61,947 nt of DNA from Nitrospirota bacterium (GTDB lineage Bacteria > Nitrospirota > Thermodesulfovibrionia > Thermodesulfovibrionales > UBA6898). The stretch lies in NCBI GenBank assembly GCA_021811105.1, contig JAJZPM010000015.1:1-61947 (forward strand). Reading direction: 5' to 3'. Below are positions 3,335 through 61,627 of this stretch, in pieces (position 1 is the stretch's first letter; every line of letters begins with the position of its first letter). The position numbers were made by a program, and so were the translations under genes. The notes beneath the pieces are model-generated. The model saw only the letters and a program-made list of their open reading frames with translations. It had not been told where the DNA came from and ran no database searches.

Positions 3335-5676
3335 TTTGGGATGATATTAAGATCTTGCTTGTCCTTATGATCCTTTTTACAGCCGACTTAGCCTATTCAT
3401 ATGATAATGAATATATCCATCCAGCCGTCAACGAAATGGCTGCAAAACAATCGGAGAATATTACTTTAAGGATGCATGATCTTACCTTTCTAAAGGGGAT
3501 TGATAGCATCTTGAATGGAAAGGAAATCTATAGATGGCTTCGGGAAGGAGGAAAACAAGAAGACATACCTGACATCCGTTCAAACAATCACTTCCACGAT
3601 CCTCTTAGGGTATGGAGCGCGGCGGGACTCAAGAGCGGGACCTTGGGGGCTTCATCTCTTGTATGGGCGCAAGAGCAGTCGCTGGGCGGGCATATCGTCA
3701 TTGGCGGAGACCGGTCGTGGAAAAAAGCAAGGACGATGTTTTATGAAGGATTGACAGTAAGCGATAGGGGTACTCGAGAAAAGAGGCTGGTATATGTCTT
3801 TCAGTCTTTGGGGCAGATAATGCACCTCATTGCTGATGTGTCCGTGCCAGCCCATGTCCGAAATGATATACATGTGTTTCCTTATGAGGTGCTTGGCCAC
3901 CAAGTTGGAAGCCGATGGCAAACCTATGAAAGCTGGGCAAAACGCCGAATGACGTCCAATACCACAGGCGTATTAAACTTCGTTGGGGTGAGGCCGGCAA
4001 CCGATATATTTGACCGCGCAATAAAAACGACAGCGGCACCCGTGGCCATCTCAGCGTTATGGGACACTGACACATATACTGGTGCTGATATCCGCACAGC
4101 AACAGGCTTCAATATTGGGTTGGCCGAGTACACTAACGCCAACTTCTTCAGTGAAGACACGATATTCAGGGACTATCCTCATCCGACTTACGACGACACT
4201 AATTATCAAGTCGCTATGAATTCGCCTGTCTTGGTTGATGCTGAAGATGGCAAACTTGACAGCAGGGCGTACATAAAAAAGACTGTTGGCGATGCTGATG
4301 CGCGCCTCGCAGCCTTCAGTTATATTTCTTATGATATCCTGAAAAAGGGCAAAACTGAGTTATCACCTTTCGTATTGGATGACGAAGTGTATAAAGACTA
4401 CTCTGCCCTTCTCATCCCCCGCGCAGTCGGGTACACCACTGCATTACTCGACTACTTCTTTCGTGGCGACATCAGGCTCGGGTTCGAGACAAGTCCTGTG
4501 GCGGGATACGTATTTACCAACAATACCGGCGAGAAGATGGAAGGGGACTTCGATATCTACTATGACACTCCGGCCGAAACGAGGGCCCCTCTTTGGCGGG
4601 GGACGGGGTGGATTGGGCCAAACGGAGACCGTGCCGCCGGCATCGACTTCATCCCGCCTGCCGATGAAAAGGAGGGTGGGAAGTATATAGTCGTTTTCAA
4701 AGGGAAGATGGGCAACGAAGACGGGGCCGTGGCGGGCTATGTCTTTCACCGGCTTATCGAGATAAGCCCTCCGGAGCGGTTTGTCTATTCTATGATCTCA
4801 GCCGATGAAAATACCAGGCAATTTACCGAACTTCGGGCCAAGGTGCGAAACGCCTCAAACGAGACAATAGGCAGCGGCAGCCTCCAGGCGGTGGTCAAAT
4901 ACAAAAAAACGGTTGATGATGAAACATACTCCTATACAGTATCGGGGGCCCGGCCGGTAAGCTCCCTGAGTGAAACCGCATCCGAATTTACCTTTGACTT
5001 CAGGCAAGAGCCGATTCCGATCGATGCCACGGATGTCAGACTTATCATCCTGTTCAAAGGCATGATTGGACAGGAGCAAAACGCCCTGGCAATGGGTGAG
5101 CGTGACATCAGCGAGCCCACACCTGTGGACTTCTTCAACAACATGGACCTGGTCTGCATCGACGGATCGTGGTATGTTGCGGGGAGCCAGGAGGCCGTAG
5201 CCCAGGTCGATGCGGATCATGATGGTGTCCCGGAGTGGGACATCTATCCCCATGATATTCAGGACGCCTATCTTAAGGTATCTCCGGGAAACGCAGGGAA
5301 AGAGGCAGGACCTGGAGATTTTACCTTCCATATCTCCTCCCTGAAAGCAGGGGGATTCTCCCGGGCGTACGTCCTCAGTGAATACGAGGCAAGCCATAGC
5401 TCGCATGTTACGAAGGTAACAGCGGAGGCCGCTGATACCTGGCCCCATGCCATCGGTCAAAAGACGTGGCCGGGTGCGGCGCTGAAAAATCAGGTCGAAC
5501 TGCACGGAGACGAGGGGTATTGCCGGACGGTAGGACTGCCCGCCCCTTGCTATGTGGACAACAGAAACGTCATGTATCCTTTCCGTGGGCGGCAGATGTG
5601 GGGTTCGATGGGGGTCATCTTCGACAATCCGCCGTTTCCGCCAGGGAGCACGTGCGAGTGGGATGCGCTGAGGTAA
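3331..5676 (+). CDS. Secreted protein with phospholipase C/P1-nuclease-like N-terminal domain
   Basis: A 781-residue protein with an N-terminal hydrophobic export signal (ILLVLMILFTADLAYS). The segment IHPAVNEMAAK, then NNHFHDPLRVWSAAG (about 85-100) and LGQIMHLIADVSVPAHVRND (about 155-175), place His and Asp residues as in zinc-dependent phospholipase C/S1-P1 nucleases. The zinc site is inferred, not aligned. The C-terminal half is beta-rich and contains a calcium-binding-like stretch (VDADHDGVPEWD, about 628-640). It is translationally coupled to the lipoprotein (ATGA overlap). Substrate is unknown; a lipase-like or purely adhesive role are alternatives. Confidence 0.6.
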   Translation: MIWDDIKILLVLMILFTADLAYSYDNEYIHPAVNEMAAKQSENITLRMHDLTFLKGIDSILNGKEIYRWLREGGKQEDIPDIRSNNHFHDPLRVWSAAGLKSGTLGASSLVWAQEQSLGGHIVIGGDRSWKKARTMFYEGLTVSDRGTREKRLVYVFQSLGQIMHLIADVSVPAHVRNDIHVFPYEVLGHQVGSRWQTYESWAKRRMTSNTTGVLNFVGVRPATDIFDRAIKTTAAPVAISALWDTDTYTGADIRTATGFNIGLAEYTNANFFSEDTIFRDYPHPTYDDTNYQVAMNSPVLVDAEDGKLDSRAYIKKTVGDADARLAAFSYISYDILKKGKTELSPFVLDDEVYKDYSALLIPRAVGYTTALLDYFFRGDIRLGFETSPVAGYVFTNNTGEKMEGDFDIYYDTPAETRAPLWRGTGWIGPNGDRAAGIDFIPPADEKEGGKYIVVFKGKMGNEDGAVAGYVFHRLIEISPPERFVYSMISADENTRQFTELRAKVRNASNETIGSGSLQAVVKYKKTVDDETYSYTVSGARPVSSLSETASEFTFDFRQEPIPIDATDVRLIILFKGMIGQEQNALAMGERDISEPTPVDFFNNMDLVCIDGSWYVAGSQEAVAQVDADHDGVPEWDIYPHDIQDAYLKVSPGNAGKEAGPGDFTFHISSLKAGGFSRAYVLSEYEASHSSHVTKVTAEAADTWPHAIGQKTWPGAALKNQVELHGDEGYCRTVGLPAPCYVDNRNVMYPFRGRQMWGSMGVIFDNPPFPPGSTCEWDALR

Positions 5677-5702
5677 TAGGGGCAATTCATGTATTGTGCC
5701 CT
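5677..5702. repeat. GTAGGGGC-type intergenic palindrome, copy A
   Basis: TAGGGGCAATTCATGTATTG then TGCCC forms a near-perfect inverted repeat immediately after the preceding stop codon. Related palindromes lie at 33883, 36093, 39207 and 54719. Confidence 0.6.
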
Positions 5703-5826
5703 GCTGTCCCCGAAATCCTGTCACGTGATAATGTCATACAAGCTTACCGTCCGCTGCATAAGCTTTACTCCCACCGAAATTTTGTGATAAACTTTCTTAT
5801 CTTCGGTTCTCACGATTAAACCCTCA

Positions 5827-6774
5827 ATGAATGTGTCCAAACACTATGCGATAGGTATTGACCTCGGAGGTACCAACCTCAGAGTTGCGCTTGTAGCGGA
5901 AGACGGCGAAATATTGAAAAAAATCAAGAAGCCGTCGAACGAACAGGTCATGAGTTCTATCGTCGAATCGATCGGAGAGATCAGGCATGACGGAATTCAG
6001 GGGATAGGACTGGGGACCGCCGGACTCGTAGACAGAGAAAACAAGCGTGTATTCTTTTCCCCTAATCGTCGCGCAATTGAAGGTATCGATATCGCGGCTG
6101 AACTGCACGGGAAGTTCGGCGTCCCGGTCTTTCTGGAGAATGACGCGAACGCGGCCGCCCTGGGGGAGAAGATCAGCGGCGCCGGAAAAGGGTTCGGGAC
6201 CTTTGTCCTCCTCACGCTTGGCACCGGCATCGGCGGGGGAATCATCTATAAAGGAAAACTGATTGAGGAATCGGCTGAAATCGGGCATATGAGCATACAG
6301 GCCGACGCGGAAAAGTGTCCCTGCGGTAACCTAGGGTGTCTCGACAACTACGCCTCTGCGAGGGCGATGATATCCAAGGCGGTCTCGATGCTCGAGAAGG
6401 GTACGGAGAGCCTGCTGAAGGAATGCTGCAAGGGGAGTATTTATAAGATCACCTCCGAAGATATATACAGGACTGCGCTCGAAGGCGACACGCTTTCCAG
6501 GGAGATACTGAAAGAGGCGGGGAAGTATCTGGGAGTCGGGCTTGCGAATATCATCAACATCCTGAGTCCCAAGGCGATCATTCTGTCCGGCGGTCTCGTC
6601 GGGGCCTGGAACATATACGTGCAGGAGGCGATAAAAGAAGCTTCCAGACGGGCCTTCAAAGACCTCTTCGATTCTGTAAAGATCATCCCTTCCTCACTCG
6701 GAGACAACGCGGGGATCATCGGTGCGGCCTGTCTCGTATTCAAGGAACTCTCCAGAGATTTTCCTCTGCCCTGA
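5827..6774 (+). CDS. ROK-family sugar kinase (glucokinase-like)
   Basis: A cytoplasmic ATP-dependent hexose kinase of the ROK family, 315 residues, the usual length. The ATP-binding DLGGTNLRVALV is at the N-terminus, the catalytic Asp lies in ENDANAAALGE (about 104-114), and LTLGTGIGGGII is the phosphate loop. The ROK zinc site reads EIGHM followed by CPCGNLGCLDNYAS (about 160-175). It likely phosphorylates glucose, but N-acetyl-sugar kinases share these motifs. It lies 3 bases before lepA on the same strand and is probably at the head of that transcription unit. Confidence 0.88.
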   Translation: MNVSKHYAIGIDLGGTNLRVALVAEDGEILKKIKKPSNEQVMSSIVESIGEIRHDGIQGIGLGTAGLVDRENKRVFFSPNRRAIEGIDIAAELHGKFGVPVFLENDANAAALGEKISGAGKGFGTFVLLTLGTGIGGGIIYKGKLIEESAEIGHMSIQADAEKCPCGNLGCLDNYASARAMISKAVSMLEKGTESLLKECCKGSIYKITSEDIYRTALEGDTLSREILKEAGKYLGVGLANIINILSPKAIILSGGLVGAWNIYVQEAIKEASRRAFKDLFDSVKIIPSSLGDNAGIIGAACLVFKELSRDFPLP

Positions 6775-58248: not shown

Positions 58249-58842
58249 ATGAAATACTTAACGATAGGTCAGTTGGCAAGAAAGGCGGAAGTGAATATAG
58301 ACACGATCCGGTACTATGAAAGAAGAGGTTTGATTTCCCCATCCAACCGAAAGGAATCCGGGTACCGGCAGTATCTTGATGATACCGTCGTCCGCATACA
58401 CTTCATCAAGCATGCGAAGGAACTCGGCTTTTCCCTTGATGAGATAGCCGAACTCCTCTCCTTAAAGCTGGATCCGAAGACAAAATGCGGGGACGTCAGG
58501 AAAAAGGCGCAGGAAAAGATCAACGAGATCGAGGGTAAAATCCAGATACTGGAGAGAATGCGACAAACACTTGTTCGACTGACGAGGATGTGCGAAGAAG
58601 GAAGGCAAGTAAGCGAATGTCCGGTACTCGAAGCGCTGGACGAGAATCCCGGCGTTGAAGAAGCGAGGCCTTTTGGTCGGGGTAGGTTTGAGCGCCTTTA
58701 CGTCTTACCTCGATTATGTTCTTTTTCCGGCTCTGGCGATTCTGCTTATCCTGACCATTGTCTCTTACGGAAAATGGAGACGTATGCAAGGCGGCGAGAA
58801 GTGAGCCGTGCACACCTGGTTTCAACCGGAGGTGAAAGATGA
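58249..58842 (+). CDS. merR: Mercury-responsive regulator MerR with abnormal C-terminal extension
   Basis: The N-terminal 137 residues are a normal MerR: DNA-binding TIGQLARKAEVNIDTIRYYE and the three mercury-binding Cys in TKCGDVR, TRMCEEG and SECPVLEAL. Typical MerR ends about there. Here the frame runs on 60 more residues with unrelated, Arg-rich sequence, because a deletion has joined merR to the remains of merF read out of frame. The stop overlaps merA (ATGA). The long spacer promoter upstream should be its target. Metal binding looks intact. Confidence 0.88.
   Translation: MKYLTIGQLARKAEVNIDTIRYYERRGLISPSNRKESGYRQYLDDTVVRIHFIKHAKELGFSLDEIAELLSLKLDPKTKCGDVRKKAQEKINEIEGKIQILERMRQTLVRLTRMCEEGRQVSECPVLEALDENPGVEEARPFGRGRFERLYVLPRLCSFSGSGDSAYPDHCLLRKMETYARRREVSRAHLVSTGGER
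58667..58804 (+). pseudogene. merF remnant (mercury transporter C-terminal half)
   Basis: In a different frame from merR, 45 codons read GLLVGVGLSAFTSYLDYV and LFPALAILLILTIVSYGKW, then a basic tail and TGA 58802-58804. This matches the second half of MerF-type mercury importers. The first helix with its vicinal cysteines and the start are missing, so a deletion has fused the end of merR to merF. Mercury uptake by MerF is therefore lost. Confidence 0.7.
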
Positions 58843-60242
58843 AAAGATACGATCTTATTATAATCGGCGGAGGGGCGGCCGCCTTTGGCGCTGCCATTCA
58901 TGCAAATGAGCTCCATTCTAATGCCGCGCTGATCAACGCTGGCCTTCCTCTCGGCGGCACATGTGTCAATGTCGGCTGTGTGCCCTCGAAAACGCTCCTT
59001 TACGCGGGGGAAATCCTTCATCTCGCAAAGCACCACGGCATCCCCGGCATAAAAATTGAGCAGGTTGAATTCGACTTCAGGAAGGTCGTTGCGGATGAAC
59101 TCGCTCTTGTTGAGAGGTTGCGCAAGGAGAAGTATGAAAAGGTCCTGAGCAGTCTCAATCATGTTACTCTTCTTGAGGGAAAGGCAAAATTTATCTCAAA
59201 AGACGCGGTGAGAGTAAACGGACAGGACCTCCACGCTGATAAGTTCATCATAGCCACCGGTTCGACAGCATCCGCACCGCCGATTGAGGGCATCCGTGAG
59301 GCGGGCTTTTTAACCCATATCGAGGCGTTGAAGTTGGAGAAGCAACCCAAGGAACTGATTGTGATCGGTGCAGGCCCCCTTGGACTTGAATTCGGGCAGA
59401 TGTATGCCCGCTTCGGCACAAAGGTAACAATTCTTGAACGCATGCCCTCCCTTTTTCCGCCTTCAGAAAAGGAACTCGTTGATCGTCTCGCTCTTATTTT
59501 TGCTCAGGAGGGGATCGCTGTCAGGTCAAGTGTGGAAGTCAGGCGAGCCTGGAAGGAAGGCGATAAGAAGGTTCTTTCATACATCGCGGAAGGGAAGGAA
59601 GAAAAGGTCTCAGGTGACGAAATACTGCTTGCTACGGGCAAGATCCCCAACACCCAGGAATTAGGGCTTGAACAAGCGGGTGTCGAGACCGACAGGCGAA
59701 AGGCTATTGCCGTCGACGAACACCTGCAGACCTCGCAGCCTCACATCTTTGCGGCAGGAGATGTGACAAATCTCCTGTTGCGGCTCGAAATCACGGCAGG
59801 GCATGAAGGAACGCTTGCGGCGGAGAATGCCCTCACGGGTTCCGGGAAAAGTATCGATTACAATACCGTGCCGTATACCATCTTTACCGATCCACAACTT
59901 GCCGGGGTAGGCTTTACCGAAGAAGAGCAGATGAGAAAGATTGGAGTTTGCGATTGTCGGACCGTGTCGTTTAGGGATGTCCCGAAGGCGATCATCATGC
60001 GGAGGACCGAAGGGCTTATCAAGATGGCCGTTCATCCCGAGACACGGCAGATCATGGGCGTCCACATCCTCGCGCCGTACGCCGGAGAACTCATAGCCGG
60101 GGCGATGATGCTTGTGAAAAACAGAAACACTATCGACGACGTGGTGGATTCACTGCCTATGTTCCCGACTCTTTCCGAATCGATAAAACTTGCGGCGCTT
60201 TCCTTTATGAAGGACATTTCAAAATTGAGTTGTTGTGTATAG
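58839..60242 (+). CDS. merA: Mercuric reductase
   Basis: A flavoprotein disulfide oxidoreductase reducing Hg(II) to Hg(0) with NADPH, 467 residues. FAD binding: LIIIGGGAAAFGAAIHANE; redox-active Cys pair in GGTCVNVGCVPSKTLLYAGE; NAD(P) site VIGAGPLGLEFGQMYARFG; C-terminal vicinal cysteines LSCCV. The N-terminal heavy-metal domain of longer MerA proteins is absent, as in many environmental forms. GGAGGTGAAAG precedes the ATG, overlapping the merR stop. Confidence 0.94.
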   Translation: MKRYDLIIIGGGAAAFGAAIHANELHSNAALINAGLPLGGTCVNVGCVPSKTLLYAGEILHLAKHHGIPGIKIEQVEFDFRKVVADELALVERLRKEKYEKVLSSLNHVTLLEGKAKFISKDAVRVNGQDLHADKFIIATGSTASAPPIEGIREAGFLTHIEALKLEKQPKELIVIGAGPLGLEFGQMYARFGTKVTILERMPSLFPPSEKELVDRLALIFAQEGIAVRSSVEVRRAWKEGDKKVLSYIAEGKEEKVSGDEILLATGKIPNTQELGLEQAGVETDRRKAIAVDEHLQTSQPHIFAAGDVTNLLLRLEITAGHEGTLAAENALTGSGKSIDYNTVPYTIFTDPQLAGVGFTEEEQMRKIGVCDCRTVSFRDVPKAIIMRRTEGLIKMAVHPETRQIMGVHILAPYAGELIAGAMMLVKNRNTIDDVVDSLPMFPTLSESIKLAALSFMKDISKLSCCV

Positions 60243-60258
60243 GCACAGGAGGACATTA

Positions 60259-60474
60259 ATGAAGATCGACTGCTATATTTCACAGGGATGCGGCTCCGAG
60301 GAAGCATTGAAAGAGAACATCGCTCGCGCTCTTGAAGCCGAAAAGATTCATGCCGAAGTAGGCATTCACAGGATCAGCAATGAAAGAGCTTCTGAATTGA
60401 AGCTCAGTGGATCGCCATCAATATTTATTGACGGAGAAGAATTGCAGCCGCAGGGTGTCGCCGGGTTTTCCTGA
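60259..60474 (+). CDS. Thioredoxin-like domain ending at an in-frame UGA (possible Sec codon), upstream part of a merB fusion
   Basis: ATG 60259 follows CACAGGAGGACATTA. The 71 residues (KIDCYISQGCGSEEAL... SGSPSIFIDGEELQPQGVAG) match the mer-associated thioredoxin-like family, with CGSE at the usual Cys-x-x-Cys place. Relatives, as I recall them, continue GF-x-Cys-Arg-...-DESGR-...-PSVETLR. Here the Cys position is TGA (60472-60474) and the next codons, in the same frame, give RMFKDESGRLVNVPSVETLR. So the reading frame runs on into merB. Either UGA encodes selenocysteine or the gene has a nonsense mutation. Confidence 0.7.
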   Translation: MKIDCYISQGCGSEEALKENIARALEAEKIHAEVGIHRISNERASELKLSGSPSIFIDGEELQPQGVAGFS

Positions 60475-60477
60475 AGA

Positions 60478-61245
60478 ATGTTCAAGGACGAGTCGGGCAG
60501 GCTCGTGAATGTTCCTTCAGTGGAGACGCTGCGAAAAGCGATGAAAGAGCGTACTTGTAAAGGAAGGAATACGTCCGATAAAGCTCAGTCCCCTCTGAAA
60601 AGTCTCATGGACCAGATCGGCGAAACGGTAAGGGGCAGACTGGCGGATGCGCGACTGAGTCCGTCAGAAGACGACGCGCGCAAATTCATTTTGAGGGAAT
60701 TCGCCAGGATCGGCAAGCCCCCATCAGAGAACGCTATTGCCGAGGCGATGAATCTTCCGACAATCGAATCGGCTAACCAGCTTGTTGAAAAACTGCACAA
60801 GGCGGACATCCTGACGAAGGAAGGCGATGAAATCATTTCAGCGTATCCTTTTTCCGCAAGAGCAACCCGCCATAGGGTTATTTTTAAGGACGGGCATGAG
60901 GTCTATGCGCTTTGTGCAACGGACGCTATGGGCATTCATTTCATGCTCCGCGAAGATATTGCCGTCCGATCCCGCTGCCCTGAATGTGAAAGTGAAATGA
61001 AAATCGAGCTGAAGGACGGCGAGGTCATCTCCTGTGTTCCTGAAGGCGTGGTTGAATTCGTCAGCAGCCGGGAGCAGTGCGGATGCACCGCAAAGACCTT
61101 CTGCCCGTTCATGAATTTCTTTTGCTCCGAGGCACATCTGGAAAAATGGCAAGACAAAAACCCAGTCTACGGAAAAGGGGAAATGTATCGTCTTCACCAG
61201 GTGCTGGAGCATGGGAAGTATATTTTCGGCGACTTCCTGAAATAG
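60478..61245 (+). CDS. merB: Organomercurial lyase (MerB), C-terminal part of a UGA-linked fusion
   Basis: Cleaves carbon-mercury bonds and passes Hg(II) to MerA. The catalytic Cys-Asp pair is YALCATDAMG and the second Cys lies in AKTFCPFMNFFCS. The MerB core begins around SLMDQIGETVRGRLAD (about residue 42). The first roughly 30 residues (FKDESGRLVNVPSVETLRKA) belong to the upstream thioredoxin-like domain, so ATG 60478 is unlikely to be a genuine start, and no ribosome-binding site precedes it. Expression needs UGA readthrough or reinitiation 3 bases after the stop. The C-terminus is intact. Confidence 0.85.
   Translation: MFKDESGRLVNVPSVETLRKAMKERTCKGRNTSDKAQSPLKSLMDQIGETVRGRLADARLSPSEDDARKFILREFARIGKPPSENAIAEAMNLPTIESANQLVEKLHKADILTKEGDEIISAYPFSARATRHRVIFKDGHEVYALCATDAMGIHFMLREDIAVRSRCPECESEMKIELKDGEVISCVPEGVVEFVSSREQCGCTAKTFCPFMNFFCSEAHLEKWQDKNPVYGKGEMYRLHQVLEHGKYIFGDFLK
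60488..60506 (+). promoter_or_regulatory. Candidate bacterial SECIS hairpin
   Basis: ACGAG-TCGGGCAGG-CTCGT forms a 5-bp stem with a 9-base loop starting 18 bases after the in-frame UGA. Bacterial SECIS elements are small hairpins at about this distance with a G-rich loop. It is short and could be chance. Confidence 0.35.
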
Positions 61246-61270: not shown

Positions 61271-61627
61271 GTGAATAGAATGATAAAAAAGATTATTGCT
61301 ATTATAATTTTTGGCATGATGCTAATCTCGGCTAATCAATCCGCTTTGGCTTGTCAGGTGGACGATTTCTATCTTACAAAGGAAGGCGCTTTGGCCTCTT
61401 CTTCGCCGGAGGGTCTGAACGAGGCGATCAGGCTTGAAGAAGAGGGCAACAAGGAAAAGCTTGGAGACCTCGTGAAGAGCGGCGCAGTTTTGCAGCTTGC
61501 AGCCAATATCAAGGTTCAGGTCGAGGAGAGATCATTTGAATTCAAGATGCTAAAGGTGAAGTCCCCGGACATGCGAGAGCCATACTGGGTGAAGGACAGT
61601 TCGTTGAAGCAAATCAATTGCAACTAA
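61271..61627 (+). CDS. Secreted small protein of unknown function
   Basis: A 118-residue protein with a signal peptide (IIAIIIFGMMLISANQSALA) and a mature part with single Cys near the N-terminus (ACQVDDFYL) and another at the end (INCN). GTG 61271 follows TTTCGGAGGAAAAG; ATG 61280 is an alternative. It may be the last gene of the mer operon, although its role in mercury resistance is unproven. Confidence 0.65.
   Translation: MNRMIKKIIAIIIFGMMLISANQSALACQVDDFYLTKEGALASSSPEGLNEAIRLEEEGNKEKLGDLVKSGAVLQLAANIKVQVEERSFEFKMLKVKSPDMREPYWVKDSSLKQINCN

Follow-up and report, generated by a model that had tools for sequence, protein, structure and literature searches.

In the mer operon of a Nitrospirota bacterium, a frame that holds a thioredoxin-like domain and an organomercurial lyase (MerB) is interrupted by a single TGA codon. 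This raises the question of whether the TGA ends one gene ahead of another or encodes selenocysteine (Sec) within one protein. We analysed the surrounding stretch of 61,947 nucleotides (the window; GenBank assembly GCA_021811105.1, contig JAJZPM010000015.1) together with relatives from other genomes. In the window, merR, merA, the fusion and a small open reading frame (ORF) follow one another, with the fusion directly after merA (Table 1). We consider it probable that 60259-61245 is a single selenoprotein gene, joining a Cys11/Sec72 domain to MerB; a relay of Hg(II) to MerA is the likeliest, though tentative, role of its front domain.

Table 1. Features of the mer locus, given as positions of the window
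Feature	Position	Strand	Evidence
merR-family regulator, overlaps the merA start; stop codon TGA	58249..58842	+	TIGR02051 134.5 bits, below the equivalog cutoff of 150.85; PF09278 and PF13411 above cutoff
merA, mercuric reductase with C-terminal vicinal Cys pair (SCCV)	58839..60242	+	TIGR02053 530.5 bits, over cutoff
Shine-Dalgarno sequence GGAGG of the fusion gene	60248..60252	+	precedes ATG 60259
Whole predicted selenoprotein gene (DF-like Sec domain and MerB)	60259..61245	+	328 residues, stop TAG
DF-like thioredoxin-fold domain, residues 1-99	60259..60555	+	NF049942 46.7 bits; predicted thioredoxin fold
Codon of Cys11, first chalcogen residue	60289..60291	+	invariant in aligned Sec and Cys fusions
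TGA, predicted selenocysteine 72	60472..60474	+	30 distinct relatives with TGA; five actinobacterial fusions with Cys
Stem-loop resembling a SECIS element (apical stem at 60488-60506, GGGCA loop at 60495-60499)	60472..60519	+	folding and conservation
Apparent merB ATG, within the DF-like domain	60478..60480	+	no Shine-Dalgarno sequence
MerB region, residues 115-328 (PF03243 at 198-323)	60601..61242	+	101.4 bits versus cutoff 27; MerB fold
Codon of Cys219, equivalent of MerB Cys96	60913..60915	+	alignment
Codon of Asp222, equivalent of MerB Asp99	60922..60924	+	alignment
Codon of Cys282, equivalent of MerB Cys159	61102..61104	+	alignment
Small ORF, signal-like N-terminus, without family match; probably part of the operon	61271..61627	+	ORF list, profile searches

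The TGA at codon 72 is the only stop within the frame, which terminates with TAG at 61243-61245. An ORF of 79 codons and one of 255 codons flank the TGA in this same frame, and read-through yields 328 residues, namely a DF-like domain followed by a complete MerB. The earlier note on this DNA had described a thioredoxin-like domain and merB in one frame with the TGA as the sole break, and all of its coordinates were right. It had also assigned the codons behind the TGA to the thioredoxin-like family rather than to MerB. Profile NF049942 indeed aligns across the TGA to residues 4-94 (profile positions 2-96 of 96), and both this alignment and standalone relatives place codons 73-95 (RMFKDESGRLVNVPSVETLRKAM) in the upstream domain. 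Since the equivalent stretch is equally conserved in standalone copies without MerB, it belongs to the upstream protein. A Shine-Dalgarno sequence was sought at the apparent merB start (ATG 60478) and at a further in-frame ATG (60607); it was absent at both, in agreement with the claim that the apparent start has no ribosome-binding site. Gene callers halting at the UGA would take 60478 as the merB start and miss the Sec domain.

Among 396 sampled Nitrospirota genomes, 72 gave matches, about 50 of which represent a DF-like domain with an in-frame TGA; the exact TGA position was checked in 30 of these. Codon 72 is TGA in every one of the 30 distinct Nitrospirota loci aligned, within a motif that mostly reads GFS-U-RMFxDESGRLxNVPSV. 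Most Nitrospirota copies of the domain are standalone, with no MerB downstream. Five actinobacterial plasmid fusions carry Cys (TGC) in the Sec column, within SCRLY, in line with the Cys-Arg motif that the earlier note had given for relatives at this position. The UGA/Cys alternation that it had suggested looking for is present, with independent genomes differing in this one column (30 TGA loci versus five Cys loci). Cys11 and residue 72 are the two chalcogen positions that Sec and Cys fusions have in common.

Intact Sec fusions were found at four loci: in the window, in L011 (= G073), in L012 (= G254), whose genome belongs to another genus of the same family as the window, and in L018 (= G223), from the same genus. 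The L011 and L012 fusions are near-copies. All Sec fusions come from draft or metagenomic assemblies, and L011 lies on a short, low-coverage contig. On either side of the TGA, identity among the intact fusions is 59-74%. A decayed relative, L019 (G213), has kept merA and the Sec domain and lost most of MerB. No relatives were found in the viral contigs and phages searched, or in plasmids searched at the nucleotide level. The fusion may have arisen once or twice: the Nitrospirota fusions were placed among standalone Sec copies in the DF-like tree, and in the MerB tree, Nitrospirota and actinobacterial fusions form separate clades, the deep forks being open. In L018 (minus strand), the upstream merR continues in frame, with no stop, into the DF-like-MerB fusion; this would be a fusion of three parts, unless translation starts internally.

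A small hairpin at SECIS-like distance from the TGA had been proposed at 60488-60506, and we found the stem exactly there. Folding of the RNA from the UGA onward gave -18.7 kcal/mol (z -3.3), with an apical stem of 7 bp and the GGGCA loop 20 nt downstream of the UGA. In stem, loop and distance this structure agrees with the published bSECIS rules (stem 4-16 bp, loop 3-9 nt with G in its first two positions, distance to the UGA 16-37 nt; PMC13188914). Five core pairs were followed over the 30 loci, and 147 of 150 are formed, whereas 2000 control trials with synonymous codons redrawn by the usage of the same genes averaged 102 (sd 5.2) and never exceeded 119; since this control ignores shared ancestry, the comparison does not translate into an exact probability. 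The Leu codon is CTC in 28 of the 30 loci (versus 19% usage). The covariation score was higher than in any of 500 shuffles, and sliding the structure to other positions gave far less pairing. In the Cys forms from Actinobacteria, only 0-3 of the five core pairs are formed. At the level of sequence, an RNA-level constraint that preserves the stem through synonymous codon choice is supported.

The Sec machinery, which the earlier note had named as something to look for, is present in the window's genome with selA, selB, selC and selD. selA and selB are adjacent on contig C37, selC has the UCA anticodon, and selD (L057) encodes a selenoprotein in its own right, its TGA lying in the classic CAG-U-AAK site. 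selA was also detected in the three other genomes with intact fusions and in the genome of the decayed one. Beside the true selC, another tRNA that resembles tRNA-Sec but carries the Cys anticodon GCA was observed (L003 1501-1591, minus strand, contig C10), which fits the selC*-type tRNA-Cys reported from Nitrospirae (PMC7609411).

How the UGA is read can be weighed against this background. Were it mostly a real stop, translation would release a thioredoxin-like protein of 71 residues and start afresh at ATG 60478 or 60607 to yield MerB, with translational coupling as a conceivable route. ATG 60478 lies 3 nt after the TGA, annotation software would pick it, and the methionine encoded at 60607 (M117) is conserved in L011 and L012. 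However, the M117 position is Leu in L018, neither ATG is preceded by a Shine-Dalgarno sequence, the SECIS-like constraint speaks against it, and the conservation of residues 73-95 in standalone copies without MerB indicates that the frame is read through; we regard a real stop as very unlikely. Decoding as an ordinary amino acid, either by a code change or as Cys through an unusual tRNA-Cys, might be suggested by the tRNA at L003 and its selC*-type counterparts (PMC7609411). But the anticodon of this tRNA is GCA and not UCA, a canonical UCA selC is present, and TGA is the ordinary stop for 10 of the 25 genes in the window, including merR, which leaves such decoding highly improbable. For a sequencing error or a pseudogene lesion speak only the stop itself and the existence of the decayed L019; the same TGA recurs in dozens of separately assembled genomes, and the intact fusions keep their identity on both sides of it, so that the chance of such a lesion is close to negligible. 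Error, code change and real stop were rejected on conservation, on the normal use of TGA as a stop in the window and on the SECIS-like constraint. From sequence comparison, Sec at codon 72 is very highly probable, and TGA 60472 is almost certainly read as selenocysteine. Each of the checks proposed in the earlier note that was run favoured its reading of the TGA.

The front domain resembles a selenoprotein family published in 2025, the 'hypothetical protein DF' of Desulfosediminicola flagellatus, which was assigned no function and was reported from one Desulfosediminicola genome, without a TGA-containing homologue elsewhere (PMC12013277); the family is also listed in PMC13188914. The domain aligns with this family (NF049942) over its full length and through the Sec codon, and Sec/Cys pairs and SECIS-like structures were described there too (PMC12013277). 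Its score of 46.7 bits (42.5 in the genome search) lies under the curated cutoff of 70, and we therefore call the domain DF-like; the published DF differs further in that it comes without MerB, without a function and without a second TGA homologue. Structure modelling predicted a thioredoxin fold (pLDDT 85). Foldseek, run with the front domain alone, returned weak thioredoxin matches (best E 1.4e-3), and VIA-align gave thioredoxins at Z ~8.5, which is near the background range quoted by VIA-align, so that the fold assignment rests on sequence profiles as well. A Pfam search gave no match to an HMA profile in the front domain, the predicted fold being that of thioredoxin instead. At locus L092, a standalone Sec DF-like domain and a Thioredoxin_3-like domain share one reading frame as a fusion, and an arsR-like gene follows.

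The MerB part holds four of the four signature residues of MerB (C96, D99, C117 and C159; PMC8261052), as C219, D222, C240 and C282, and is, judged by its residues, catalytically complete. It is also divergent: with the canonical MerB equivalogs NF033555 and NF009710 it scored 58.0 and 62.2 bits (cutoffs 200 and 193), and with the SaoL model NF040728 86.4 bits (cutoff 140). In this half of the fusion, no in-frame TGA follows codon 72.

Other Nitrospirota genomes encode separate MerB-like proteins of ~240 aa with two in-frame TGAs, of which we list six (L104, L105, L107, L108, L109 and L110; also L084-L086). Their TGAs align with the catalytic C96 and C159 of MerB, and Glu stands in place of D99 (in one protein, Lys). 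Both TGAs persist even where identity falls to 38%, and a hairpin follows many of them. These proteins pass the Pfam MerB cutoff (62-75 bits); none of the NCBIfam models reaches its cutoff. In G260, the double-TGA gene shares a contig with selA and lies a few kilobases from it, with a selB-like ORF, recognised by eye, in between (L108 4482-6362; G260:C9:36045-37139). G217, a genome rated 96% complete, has a double-TGA MerB-like gene (L086, L110) and gave no SelA match, which may reflect either a gap in the assembly or loss of the gene.

Upstream merA genes accompany the fusions of L012, L078 and L080 as well, with one small ORF in between in L012 and L080. In L078, merR, a thioredoxin-like gene, merT, an HMA protein and merA precede the decayed fusion. 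The L018 fusion follows merR directly, without an intervening merA, which weakens the case for an obligatory hand-off to MerA. A small ORF bordering the L012 fusion (5658-5975) encodes a signal-like N-terminus and a SHOCT domain. Standalone copies from several genomes adjoin genes for ArsR, an LMWPc-type arsenate reductase, an SBF-family transporter, an ArsP_1 permease and Thioredoxin_3 proteins (Sec loci L013, L062, L064, L065, L068, L069 and L073; one representative was scanned with Pfam for most clusters). With mer genes on the one hand and ars genes on the other, the DF-like domain goes along with the handling of metals and metalloids. A 'GDCCVxC domain-containing (seleno)protein' annotated in a merB/merT operon of a Jiella plasmid (L114 3052-3276) connects a further selenoprotein-type family with mer genes.

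For the protein itself we propose that translation would begin at ATG 60259 and that Sec would be put in at UGA 60472 via SelB and tRNA-Sec, directed by the stem-loop just downstream. MerB would then cleave the C-Hg bond using Cys219, Cys282 and Asp222, the Cys11/Sec72 pair would take Hg(II) from MerB (or bind the organomercurial), and the mercury would be handed to the C-terminal Cys pair of the MerA encoded upstream. In other MerA proteins, Hg(II) is delivered by NmerA, an HMA domain. An N-terminal domain of this kind was sought in the window's MerA with Pfam, without a match, and the front domain of the fusion may work like NmerA without being one. Because MerB is encoded behind the UGA, its synthesis should depend on selenium; we infer that it is made only by readthrough, and, barring a functional internal start, the full-length lyase should require selenium. 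For an Hg relay by Cys11/Sec72, the proposed chemistry and direction are plausible but tentative. That the pair is a dedicated MerB-to-MerA mercury relay, with the placement of the UGA making demethylation conditional on selenium, is possible, if somewhat doubtful. The Sec mercury-relay site of the earlier note is plausible from the operon but was stated too firmly.

The main rival of the relay is a redox role of Cys11/Sec72. The selenoprotein would be the same and its front domain a redox partner instead of a mercury carrier, in which a selenenylsulfide/selenolthiol couple would maintain the cysteines of MerB in reduced form or provide the thiol equivalents for Hg(II) release. Such a role would suit the predicted thioredoxin fold, the proximity of standalone copies to genes for Thioredoxin_3 proteins and arsenate reductase, and the Thioredoxin_3-like fusion partner at L092. 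But a CxxC motif is missing from the domain, the fusions having a residue other than Cys at position 14; metal binding would explain the association with mer and ars operons equally well; and a dedicated reductant is not known to be required by MerB. We consider the redox partner rather unlikely.

The relay, which remains our preferred reading, resembles the bifunctional organomercurial lyase/mercuric reductase MerBA and NmerA in that lyase, metal-carrying domain and reductase steps are physically coupled; the extra domain of the fusion is a Sec thioredoxin fold, neither a reductase nor an HMA fold. Closest in architecture are actinobacterial proteins of 325-334 aa annotated as 'alkylmercury lyase family protein' or merB (for example WP_065848419.1, WP_163738670.1 and WP_006438313.1), which have the same two-domain order. 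They share Cys11, the GSP and (S)CR motifs, the MerB catalytic residues and an adjoining merR-type gene, but they have Cys (TGC) for Sec, 0-3 of the five stem pairs, ~30-34% identity and no neighbouring merA in the stretches read. SaoL (NF040728), a MerB-like organometallic lyase, is likewise related to MerB and a selenoprotein in some members (PMC13188914). Its Sec lies in a CU motif, whereas the MerB half of the fusion is free of in-frame TGA and scores below the SaoL cutoff.

The earlier note had spoken of a new type of organomercurial detoxification protein. This is too strong, because Cys versions are annotated in Actinobacteria, the DF family is published and SaoL is known; that is, the DF selenoprotein family, SaoL and the Cys two-domain protein (annotated only as alkylmercury lyase) are already known. 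What stands is the Sec form. This form of the fusion, the wide distribution of the UGA in Nitrospirota and the linkage to mer and ars genes were not found in the literature searched, which covers selenoprotein papers in part.

Selenium-mercury antagonism is usually treated as a matter of toxicology; here, a selenol is apparently built into a mercury detoxification enzyme. In mine sediments, members of the Nitrospirota have been put forward as producers and as degraders of methylmercury (PMC9948709). Since an orphan selenoprotein domain is tied to mer and ars genes, its function becomes directly testable. If the relay is true, it would be the first function for a DF-like domain, and the standalone forms may act similarly for arsenic or other metals.
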